From the NCBI GenBank assembly GCA_019339365.1, contig CP079860.1, forward strand, positions 1,674,001 to 1,738,000: 64,000 nucleotides of DNA, in the 5' to 3' direction. Under the pieces are notes generated by a model, which saw only the letters and a program-made list of their open reading frames with translations, ran no database searches and was not told the DNA's origin. The stretch comes from Vibrio neptunius (GTDB lineage: Bacteria > Pseudomonadota > Gammaproteobacteria > Enterobacterales > Vibrionaceae). Position numbers and translations under genes: made by a program. Positions 5,161-46,830 of the stretch are shown piece by piece (the first letter of the stretch is position 1; each line of letters begins with the position of its first letter).

Positions 5161-5679
5161 TTGAAAAAGATCATCCTAACCAGTGCACTCGTTTGTACTG
5201 GTTTCGCTGGCGCGGTCAATGCGAACAACTTTAACTATAACTTCTTTGAAGTACGCACAGCGGTGAACCCTGAAATGAGCGGCGTTGAATTCAGTACACT
5301 GTTCACTGATAACTCTCATTTTATTCTGAGAGCAGATACGCAGTTTGACAAAGACTACGATTTGGCAGGCGGTATCGGGTTCAATGGACCAATGAGTCAG
5401 TTTGCTGACGTCTATGGTCAATTACTTGTCCACCAGACCAAATATACCAAAGAAGCGGGTGGCGAGTCTGATACTGTGGCTGAAGTAAACATAGGTGTGC
5501 GTATGTGGCTCGCTGATCAGATTGAAGCGACGGGTAGAATTGGCCGTAATGACGACAGTTCAGTCTTTCACGCGGGTGTACGTTTTCACTCAACCGATCA
5601 GTTGTCTCTTTCTGCAGAAACTCGCAACAATGGTTTGTATGGCCCACAAGTGACGATGTCTGTTCGTTTCCAATACTGA
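5161..5679 (+). CDS. Small outer-membrane beta-barrel protein, function unknown
   Basis: This 172-residue protein has a signal peptide (MKKIILTSALVCTGFAGAVNA, cleavage after residue 21). Alternating hydrophobic strands and a C-terminal Tyr (SVRFQY) match the signal for outer-membrane barrel insertion. I choose the TTG at 5161: it has GGAG at 5149-5152 with an 8-base spacer and begins exactly at the signal peptide. The ATG further upstream (5098) lies in the preceding terminator. No enzymatic motif is visible; it resembles generic vibrio porin-like or OmpA-like barrels. Confidence 0.7.
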   Translation: MKKIILTSALVCTGFAGAVNANNFNYNFFEVRTAVNPEMSGVEFSTLFTDNSHFILRADTQFDKDYDLAGGIGFNGPMSQFADVYGQLLVHQTKYTKEAGGESDTVAEVNIGVRMWLADQIEATGRIGRNDDSSVFHAGVRFHSTDQLSLSAETRNNGLYGPQVTMSVRFQY

Positions 5680-5688
5680 TTAGACGCG

Positions 5689-5727
5689 CAAAAAAGAGCC
5701 CGGCCATTTGAAATGCCGGGCTCTCTT
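5689..5727. terminator. Bidirectional terminator between barrel gene and fruR
   Basis: A strong stem GAGCCCGGC/GCCGGGCTC (5696-5704 with 5715-5723) has an A-run on its left and T-rich sequence on its right, so it can serve both convergent genes. Confidence 0.8.
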
Positions 5728-6707
5728 TATTGCCTTACTATGATTTTTCTTGGCACCAGCTCTACACCTGGTTGATATCGCTTGGCCGCCGCATTTAATG
5801 CCAACGCAAGTGCGCTATCTGCTATCAGTTCAAATTGTTGAGGTAAAGAATTGATTTTTACCGGCAGGAAATCCAGCAGCCGATTATCACCAAAAGTCGC
5901 GAGTTTTACTTTAGCCATCACGTCCGGCTGTTCCAACAGAACATCTAATACGCCTTCTAAGAGGGTATAAGAGGTTGTAATGATGGCTTGGGGTATATCG
6001 CCTGCAGCAATCCAGCCTTCGAGGACTTCGCGACCATCTTGACGGTAAAAGTGTGCACCGTAGCCAACAATAGCCTCTATTGGCACTTTTTGGACAACCG
6101 ACCGAAAACCCAACTCTCGCTCTCGCGAAATGTTCAGCTCAGGCAGTGCGCCGATTAGTCCAATTTTAGTTACATTGTCACTTATTATGGACGACGTTAG
6201 CTCAAATGCCGCGCCAAAATCTTCACTAATGACACAGGAAAAATGTTCATCATCGAGAGGTCGGTCTATCGCAATGACGGGGGTTCCATTGTTCTGTAGC
6301 TCGCGATAAAAGTCGCTAGCTTCTGGGATTGCACTGGCAACAAATAACGCATCCACCTTGCGGCTAATTAAGGCTTCAACCACATTTTTTTCAGTATCAG
6401 GCTCATCGTCGGAACAGGCGATTAATATTTGATATCCTGCTGCACGAGAGTTTTGTTCAAGCAGTTTCGCCAAACGAGCATAACTGGTGTTTTCCAAATC
6501 AGGGATGACCAAACCAAATGAACGGCTTTGCCCGGCTCTCAATGTACTTGCAGCGAGGTCCGGTCGATAATTGTGTGCTTCAACAACCGCCAAGACTCTC
6601 TTTTGTGTTTTCTCGCTAATTCGATACTTCTGCGCCTTGCCATTAATGACATAGCTCGCTGTCGTCTTCGATACACCTGCCAATTTGGCTATTTCATCAA
6701 GTGTCAT
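5727..6707 (-). CDS. fruR: Fructose operon repressor / catabolite repressor-activator FruR (Cra)
   Basis: This LacI-family regulator of the fructose PTS operon has 326 residues. The N-terminal helix-turn-helix (LDEIAKLAGVSKTTASYVINGK, residues 2-23) is followed by a periplasmic-binding-protein-like sensor domain. Cra proteins are inactivated by fructose 1-phosphate or fructose 1,6-bisphosphate. It is divergent from fruB, with three GCTGAAWCGTTTCAGC-like dyads between them, which supports both identity and autoregulation. A partial CRP-like site (TGTGA-N6-TCAAA at 6724-6739) lies just upstream of its start; that site is weak. Confidence 0.93.
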   Translation of the reverse strand: MTLDEIAKLAGVSKTTASYVINGKAQKYRISEKTQKRVLAVVEAHNYRPDLAASTLRAGQSRSFGLVIPDLENTSYARLAKLLEQNSRAAGYQILIACSDDEPDTEKNVVEALISRKVDALFVASAIPEASDFYRELQNNGTPVIAIDRPLDDEHFSCVISEDFGAAFELTSSIISDNVTKIGLIGALPELNISRERELGFRSVVQKVPIEAIVGYGAHFYRQDGREVLEGWIAAGDIPQAIITTSYTLLEGVLDVLLEQPDVMAKVKLATFGDNRLLDFLPVKINSLPQQFELIADSALALALNAAAKRYQPGVELVPRKIIVRQ

Positions 6708-45447: not shown

Positions 45448-45458
45448 GAGTGAGCACA

Positions 45459-46208
45459 TTGGAGATCCTTTCCGATCAAGAAATGCTTCGCTACAACCGT
45501 CAAATCATACTCAAGCAGTTTGATTTTGACGGCCAGGAAGCACTAAAGCAAAGCTCGATTTTGATTCTTGGTGCTGGTGGGCTTGGCTGCGCGTCAAGCC
45601 AATACCTAGCAACAGCAGGGGTCGGCTCTCTGACCTTAATTGATGATGACGTTGTAGAACTGTCTAATCTGCAACGCCAAGTACTTCATCATGACGATGA
45701 CGTTGGTAAGAAGAAAGTCCTCTCGGCCTCTGAATCTCTGCAACAACTGAACCCTCACCTAGAAGTGCGAACGATAGATCAACGTTTGAGTGATGAGGAT
45801 TTAAAGACAGAAATCGAGCAGCATACATTAGTGCTTGATGCATCGGATAACGTAGAGACTCGTAATCAGCTTAACCGCCTCTGCTACCAGTTAAAAACAC
45901 CACTTGTTTCAGGTGCAGCAATAAGAATGGAAGGCCAAGTCAGTGTCTTCACTTATCAGGATAAAGCACAACCTTGTTACCAGTGTTTAAGCTCGCTATT
46001 CGGCTCAGCAGCATTAAGCTGTGTTGAAGCTGGAGTCATGGCGCCAGTTGTCGGCATCATCGGCGCGGTACAAGCTATGGAAGCGATCAAAGTTATCGCC
46101 AATTATGGACGGGCGAAAGAAGGTAAGGTTTTGATTCTCGATGCGATGACCATGTCATGGCGAGAAATGAATCTGATGAAAATGCCGAATTGCCCCGTTT
46201 GTAGCTAA
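45459..46208 (+). CDS. moeB: Molybdopterin-synthase adenylyltransferase MoeB
   Basis: MoeB adenylates the C-terminus of MoaD so that it can be loaded with sulfur for molybdopterin synthesis. The 249-residue E1-like enzyme has the ATP loop GAGGLGCASSQYL and zinc cysteines in PCYQCL and CPVC. I choose the TTG at 45459: AGGAG at 45446-45450 gives an 8-base spacer, the N-terminus MEILSDQEMLRYNRQI aligns with E. coli MAELSDQEML, and the length matches exactly. A GTG at 45450 would put the ribosome site on the start codon. Confidence 0.93.
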   Translation: MEILSDQEMLRYNRQIILKQFDFDGQEALKQSSILILGAGGLGCASSQYLATAGVGSLTLIDDDVVELSNLQRQVLHHDDDVGKKKVLSASESLQQLNPHLEVRTIDQRLSDEDLKTEIEQHTLVLDASDNVETRNQLNRLCYQLKTPLVSGAAIRMEGQVSVFTYQDKAQPCYQCLSSLFGSAALSCVEAGVMAPVVGIIGAVQAMEAIKVIANYGRAKEGKVLILDAMTMSWREMNLMKMPNCPVCS

Positions 46209-46242
46209 ACTCACCATAAACGGTCAGGAGTACAAAGGTTAT

Positions 46243-46510
46243 TAGGATCTGTTGACCTTTTGAGCTGATTTTTGCAGCAGTTTGTGGGTTCTTTATACAA
46301 GGCAGAGGGTTTGAAATGTAGTTGCCCTACCTGATAAGCCGATAACGCAGTAGAAAGGAACCACAAACGCTGCCCAGAGGGTTCGGCTAAAAGCGTTTTA
46401 CTCTTTGTTGAGAGGTGTTTTGCTTAGGTCACTAGGCGACAAACCTCTCGCCGCGACTAAAACGCTTTTATCTCGAACAAAATTTAACCGCAAAAGGTCA
46501 ACAGACCCTA
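46243..46510. mobile_element. MITE-like element with terminal inverted repeats and TA duplication
   Basis: Terminal inverted repeats of 19 bp (46244-46262 and 46491-46509, one mismatch) are bounded by TA on both sides (46243-46244 and 46509-46510). The body has no open frame. It contains nested dyads: 46274-46291 pairs with 46358-46373, 46388-46400 pairs perfectly with 46458-46470, and GAGAGGT at 46410 pairs with ACCTCTC at 46443. A TA target duplication is typical of IS630/Tc1-type ends, but I cannot name the family. An alternative is a structured non-coding RNA gene. It fills the whole moeB-46510 gap. Confidence 0.55.
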
Positions 46511-46830
46511 TGAACAACCCGAAAATATTTCTGGCCGCCCTGCTCCTGTTAGCACTGGTCTTGCTTGGACTGATAGCGATCAATAAGCCAAAGCAAACCA
46601 CTAGAGTTCAAGCGCTTGTCTTAACTCAAACTCTCACCCAGTCACTTGATGGAAATCGACGCTTTCTGAATATTGAATTTGGCGATGGTGGCCAAACTAT
46701 GATTAGCATCCCGCCTCAAACTGAATGCCCTGTCAATTCCATCGTGGAACTTGACAAGAAATCCTCACCCTTTTCTGACGCTATCAGCTATCGCTATGTA
46801 CAGTGCAACACCTATACCAATAAACATTAA
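46510..46830 (+). CDS. Small membrane-anchored protein, function unknown
   Basis: The 106-residue protein starts at ATG 46510 (MNNPKIFLAALLLLALVLLGLIAINK) with one membrane segment at about residues 6-23, followed by a small extracytoplasmic domain with two Cys residues (TECPVNS, YVQCNT) that could form a disulphide. The ATG directly abuts the MITE-like element and lacks a good ribosome site (AAAGG is 13-16 bases upstream). The original leader may have been displaced; a longer frame from 46405 runs inside the element and looks non-coding. Confidence 0.6.
   Translation: MNNPKIFLAALLLLALVLLGLIAINKPKQTTRVQALVLTQTLTQSLDGNRRFLNIEFGDGGQTMISIPPQTECPVNSIVELDKKSSPFSDAISYRYVQCNTYTNKH

Follow-up and report, generated by a model that had tools for sequence, protein, structure and literature searches.

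A 64-kb stretch of the genome of Vibrio neptunius (hereafter the window) contains moeB and a small downstream gene, and between them lies a short element without any gene-like frame, which the first-pass annotation had rightly placed next to moeB (Table 1). Direct reading of the sequence gives 268 bp from TA to TA, and not 267 bp, because both TAs are counted. The ends form terminal inverted repeats of 20 nt including the TA (left TAGGATCTGTTGACCTTTTG, right CAAAAGGTCAACAGACCCTA); they carry the single mismatch described initially, although they had been measured as 19 bp. A TA is indeed present on each flank. Inside the element, a perfect 13-bp dyad (TAAAAGCGTTTTA, 46388-46400, with TAAAACGCTTTTA, 46458-46470) is accompanied by two other dyads, so that all three of the internal dyads reported at first are present in the sequence. 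None of the listed open reading frames is a gene-like frame internal to the element, in agreement with the original description: the listed frame of 141 aa starting with TTG (46405-46830) is the downstream gene extended in the 5' direction. The copy in the window folds with a predicted energy of -109.3 kcal/mol, as compared to -68.6 +/- 4.6 kcal/mol for dinucleotide shuffles (z -8.9), and none of 200 shuffles folded as well, which answers the folding check suggested at the outset.

Table 1. Features of the moeB locus (positions in the window).
Feature	Position	Strand	Basis
moeB, upstream neighbour of the MITE	45450..46208	+	frame; 76.5% match in Vibrio sp. HDW18 annotated moeB
Shine-Dalgarno-like AGGAG of downstream gene	46226..46230	+	sequence, empty site
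MITE	46243..46510	+	sequence, fold, copies in host, genus and order, empty site
Left TA of target duplication	46243..46244	.	empty site of G168 has one TA
Left terminal inverted repeat	46243..46262	+	22-nt match of family consensus to one IS end
Foldback arm 1 (consensus positions 33-130)	46275..46372	+	consensus structure
Small CCC-AGA-GGG hairpin at arm junction	46373..46381	+	sequence, consensus structure
Foldback arm 2, contains the perfect 13-bp dyad	46382..46477	+	consensus structure
Right terminal inverted repeat	46491..46510	-	19-nt match of family consensus to other IS end
Right TA of target duplication; its A doubles as first base of the downstream ATG	46509..46510	.	sequence, empty site
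Small gene downstream of the MITE	46510..46830	+	first base of ATG supplied by right TA

Owing to the insertion, the small gene located 3' of moeB has its AGGAG and its ATG on opposite sides of the element (46226-46512). The same site is filled in genomes G000, G100, and G037, and it is empty in G168, where a single TA is found together with one adjoining base unlike those of the filled sites; the search for an empty site with one TA, proposed in the first-pass annotation, was thus successful. These filled and empty alleles in related genomes provide a natural test of the effect of the element on the downstream gene. In the moeB-site copy of G037 (L136; also L007 and L067), the right TA reads CA, a single T-to-C change.

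Copies in marine gammaproteobacteria and their consensus fold

A second copy, 99% identical, occurs on the other contig of the host genome. Matches, some of them partial, were found in 151 of 227 Vibrio genomes and, across the order, in 102 of 394 genomes and 26 of the 114 genera sampled, so that the search for copies recommended initially was amply rewarded; as only two or three candidates were scored per genome in these genus and order searches, the copy numbers that they give are lower bounds. A search with an internal 16-mer led to 120 loci, 94 of which hold a copy. Among the matches listed (80 named loci), the genera include Vibrio, Shewanella, Alishewanella, Thalassotalea, Colwellia, Algicola, and Motilimonas, and a separate search added matches in Pseudoalteromonas and Catenovulum. 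Phage records gave no match at E 1e-5. In one genome (G259), end matches at up to three mismatches numbered 73 forward and 80 reverse.

We collected 231 distinct full copies, 229 of them with readable ends. Their length is well conserved (266-269 bp in 185/229); a group of long variants measures at least 279 bp (28/229, including L028, L038, L088, and L128). TA stands at both ends in 187 of the 229 copies and, in these 187, it is preferentially preceded by Y (89% at position -1) and followed by R (92% at +1), that is, a YTAR preference. Tandem copies overlapping by 2 bp, with one TA in common, were observed in G259 and G435 (L122, L123). Where at least 500 bp of flank was available on each side, 4 of 167 copies overlapped a long frame. 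Their neighbour genes are arranged in tandem in 97 cases, convergent in 32, and divergent in 35, without marked excess downstream of genes, and within the tandem pairs the element has the same orientation as the genes in 60 cases and the opposite one in 37. In Shewanella frigidimarina (L311, 5308-6374), a 164-aa frame lies between two matches in inverted orientation, separated by about 1 kb, which may form a composite unit.

The element is therefore short, devoid of protein genes, bounded by inverted ends, flanked by a TA duplication with a corresponding empty site, repeated, and endowed with ends that also occur on an autonomous insertion sequence (IS, see below), all of which is expected from a MITE. 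On the strength of its sequence characters, it is a MITE of a family widespread in marine gammaproteobacteria. The mobile-element reading of the first-pass annotation is borne out by the multiple copies, the TA duplication, the empty site, and the IS with the same ends; a single copy conserved syntenically throughout the vibrios, which that annotation held to speak for a local gene, is the opposite of what we found, namely copies at unrelated sites.

For a discovery set, 131 copies were extracted, 116 of which were unique and 49 remained below 90% identity. As the MITE is nearly self-complementary, copies were oriented against the window copy before alignment. The resulting strand-symmetric consensus contains 90 pairs in the 49 non-redundant copies, whose mean identity is 69%, and comprises, in order, the end stem, two short long-range stems, arm 1, the small hairpin, and arm 2. 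In the 72 pairs inside the ends, the Watson-Crick fraction is 0.854, as compared to 0.276-0.340 when the pairing is slid, and Watson-Crick cells amount to 2991 against 2403 +/- 17 in shuffled data. On a tree of the 116 copies, 60 of these 72 inner pairs underwent at least one full double change from one Watson-Crick pair to another, a heavy covariation of the kind that the first-pass annotation had recommended looking for among copies. It consists mostly of full Watson-Crick exchanges, without overall wobble excess.

Over all internal pairs, changes from Watson-Crick to GU and to AC were equally numerous (114 each; GU share 0.49, bootstrap 0.41-0.58), which speaks against an RNA gene on a single strand. 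The two arms are biased in opposite directions, with 69 GU and 39 AC in arm 1 and 28 GU and 61 AC in arm 2 in the discovery set; for this reason, a purely DNA-level pairing, as the overall equality of GU and AC had suggested, was dropped. G-T is thus tolerated on the top strand in arm 1 and on the bottom strand in arm 2 and, when both arms are seen from their nearer end, inward-reading G-T prevails over outward-reading G-T (130 versus 67), with no significant bias in the long-range stems (GU:AC 31:32 and 10:11). This inward pattern was first found post hoc and then recurred in a held-out set of 64 copies less than 95% identical to the discovery set, which were placed on the alignment and structure of the latter (74 inward versus 37 outward, p 0.0006); in these copies, neither arm 2 alone (20:30) nor the long-range stems (16:25 and 11:6) reached significance. 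In 6S RNA, used as control, the share was similar (41:25), itself not significant (p 0.064).

Such a signal might reflect transcripts. Under one explanation, both arms would be selected as bidirectional RNA hairpins: a transcript entering from either side would fold the arm that it meets first, thereby ending, protecting, or insulating the message. The inward wobble of the arms in both sets, the lack of significant bias in the long-range stems, and the similar share in the 6S RNA control all agree with this. By contrast, no intrinsic terminator was found in the MITE, copies show neither a marked excess downstream of genes nor a single orientation within tandem gene pairs, arm 2 taken alone is not significant in the held-out copies, and the pattern had a post hoc origin. 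Single-column counts also weigh against it: the inward C-to-T excess is seen at long-range stems too and, weakly, at unpaired sites, whereas arm 2 displays no inward bias (CT/GA 0.96, AG/TC 1.13); at unpaired sites A-to-G is of opposite sign. Because the C-to-T excess extends outside the arms, strand-biased mutation could produce this kind of wobble signal. It is possible that RNA from either flank folds in the arms; as the reason for their selection, we consider bidirectional hairpins rather unlikely. The structured-RNA half of the first-pass annotation fares accordingly: it gains from the wobble on the inward-reading strand of the arms, and it loses from the lack of overall strand preference and from the search in Rfam, which gave no family match (the only hit, to SNORD89, was sub-threshold with 19.6 bits versus a cut-off of 41, E 0.27).

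The candidate mobiliser

When viral contigs were scanned for the family end, a single locus was retrieved (L223, IMG/VR), in which two ends, 883 bp apart, surround a gene for a 252-aa transposase of the IS5 family (NCBIfam transpos_IS5_3, E 4.9e-83). This ISSod6-type IS (5500-6382) sits between long frames of the viral contig, which makes it a possible vehicle between genera. ISSod6 itself, on the megaplasmid of S. oneidensis MR-1, is bounded by MITE-type ends, and the MR-1 copy is annotated as ‘IS5-like element ISSod6 family transposase’; our literature search found ISSod6 named in genome reports for Xenorhabdus and V. natriegens. Like the MITE, ISSod6-type IS have the same 18-22 bp ends and a TA at both outer ends. 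Unlike it, they are 883 bp (L223 and ISSod6) or mostly 887 bp long (14 of the 19 Vibrio loci) and carry the gene for the transposase of about 252 aa.

The end variant GGGCGTG occurs at both ends of the IS in 9 of the 19 Vibrio loci and at one or both ends in 16. The MITEs in one clade of Vibrio have it too, and it forms the left end in 24 of 187 MITE copies. The agreement does not extend to every genome: in G152 the IS ends are GGGACAG and GGGCGTG, yet the MITE has GGGTCTG, and G033 has a GGGCGTG IS but apparently a GGGTCTG MITE, judged only from match start positions. The interiors of MITE and IS show no homology, the ends being all that they have in common, and subterminal similarity was not significant in four tests (p 0.19-0.69). 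Since the two are alike only at their ends, the MITE is not a simple internal deletion of an ISSod6-type IS and, by this comparison, its interior is not IS-derived.

At E<=1e-60, an ISSod6-type transposase was detected in 25 of 223 Vibrio genomes, and 22 of these 25 contain the MITE, as compared to the genus-wide 151/227; across the order, it was detected in 23 of 394 genomes, 8 of which contain the MITE, against 102/394 overall, so that IS and MITE co-occur only weakly at this scale. At the same threshold, none was found in the host genome or in any of the 7 genomes of one genus, 6 of which contain the MITE, three of them with 39-42 scored matches. Ten isolated ends in G259 were inspected as possible IS: eight loci turned out to be full or cut MITEs and one consisted of two fragments, whereas the tenth lacks a MITE, and visual inspection of the four frames listed for it revealed no transposase.

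We propose that ISSod6-type IS5-family transposases recognise the 18-22 bp ends common to IS and MITE and would move the latter in trans, with insertion at YTAR and duplication of the TA. An ISSod6-type transposase is thus, as we infer, the likely mobiliser. The existence of MITE-rich genomes in which no such gene was detected at E<=1e-60 could instead point to a transposase of another type; given that identical ends, terminal TA, and a clade-specific end variant are all common to the MITE and the ISSod6-type IS, and that no pair of ends at an IS-like spacing was seen among the matches listed for two MITE-rich genomes (about 100 in G259 and 50 in G116), we regard this as improbable.

Pairing in spreading and resident copies

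The history of the pairs differs between the parts of the tree. At the 72 inner pairs, terminal branches accumulated 335 breaks and 106 double changes, and internal branches 77 breaks and 147 double changes. In the arms of the 64 held-out copies, breaks outnumbered doubles on terminal branches (135 versus 25), and doubles outnumbered breaks on internal ones (99 versus 58). Resident copies were followed in 14 pairs of orthologs scored on the consensus pairs (two pairs use copy L137; the moeB pairs and a truncated G168 copy were left out, and L050/L051, which repeats L199/L219, was counted once, hence 14 pairs and not 15). They displayed 58 one-sided changes, 40 changes in unpaired columns, and a single compensated pair. 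As doubles dominate the internal branches and resident copies mostly decay, pairing seems to be kept along the propagating lineage and hardly at all at resident sites. The latter speaks against a function for the host at each site and against frequent in-place correction of one arm by the other.

This bears on the view that the fold is kept by mutational templating only, with template switching between the arms correcting them at every site and without any selection. Although a covariation made mostly of full Watson-Crick exchanges, without overall wobble excess, is what such a process could leave, the 1 compensated versus 58 one-sided changes in the 14 resident pairs imply that in-place correction is not frequent, and templating as sole cause appears quite improbable to us. 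A variant in which correction is coupled to transposition itself is possible.

In orthologous copies, divergence is often lower than in the flanking sequence. The moeB copies of G000 and G100 differ at 0/268 positions versus 36/800 in the flanks, a second orthologous site at 1/268 versus 84/800, L042/L045 at 1/268 versus 88/780, and nine ortholog pairs in another genus at 57/2391 versus 386/6244. The low-divergence sets comprise the window copy with L133, L136, and L142, then L135, L137, and L141, and L042/L045, and the flanks compared include coding sequence. Exceptions include L039/L057 (20/265 in the copy versus 3/120 in the nearest flank) and L202/L222 (14/264 versus 35/699). By these counts, plain decay after insertion would not explain the frequent excess of conservation. 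The strong fold and the identity of the moeB copies in G000 and G100 despite their diverged flanks might evoke a structured RNA or regulatory gene local to the moeB locus and fixed by descent, an extremely improbable reading that is refuted as an origin by the many copies at unrelated sites, the empty site, and the TA duplication, and that also conflicts with the lack of an Rfam match, the absence of single-strand wobble preference over internal pairs, and the decay of pairing in other resident copies.

We thus hold it highly probable that the element is a mobile MITE, presumably moved by an ISSod6-type transposase, whose foldback pairing is kept with propagation. The two-arm pairing would be maintained by selection or by hairpin-templated correction, in either case tied to propagation, with pairs re-matched in spreading lineages and resident copies mostly decaying. 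More tentatively, and with real doubt, we suggest that the interior represents an independent non-coding body plan, an old two-arm fold needed to spread and selected from copy to copy, not at host sites. As for the reason, the arms might supply a folded DNA strand needed in the transposition reaction or, alternatively, hairpins in transcripts entering from either flank, each folding the proximal arm and making the insertion harmless enough to be tolerated.

Among known MITEs, ERIC sequences are small, intergenic, near-palindromic elements of 127 bp with a TA target. The Vibrio MITE is twice as long, differs in sequence, and has an identified candidate partner IS; one ERIC primer pattern had no match in the 64-kb window at up to three mismatches. 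An excerpt of PMC10969869 describes ERIC as a MITE of Enterobacteriaceae and Vibrionaceae with varied copy number. In the same excerpt, QMITE2 of Coxiella burnetii resembles our element in its strongly folded predicted transcript and differs in its direct repeats of 7-9 bp and its core of 113-145 bp. RUP of Streptococcus pneumoniae, as presented in an excerpt of PMC2229807, likewise has ends resembling those of an IS to which it is tied, and a TA target; unlike the Vibrio MITE, it measures 107 bp and is linked to IS630-Spn1, of another transposase family. Our literature search found no description of the Vibrio MITE, although it may bear an earlier name in ISfinder or in the survey of S. oneidensis mobile elements by Romine et al. 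(2008), which may describe related MITEs. When six end strings were searched for in the literature, a single one occurred, in an unrelated human paper.

The Vibrio MITE bears on two broader questions, the reason for the long foldbacks of bacterial MITEs such as ERIC and the identity of their mobilisers. What is worth following here is the partner assignment and the fold maintained from copy to copy. The family supplies hundreds of copies from many genera, an identifiable candidate partner IS, and a clear evolutionary signature, with pairs re-matched in spreading lineages and decaying in residents, so that what the fold does can be tested directly.
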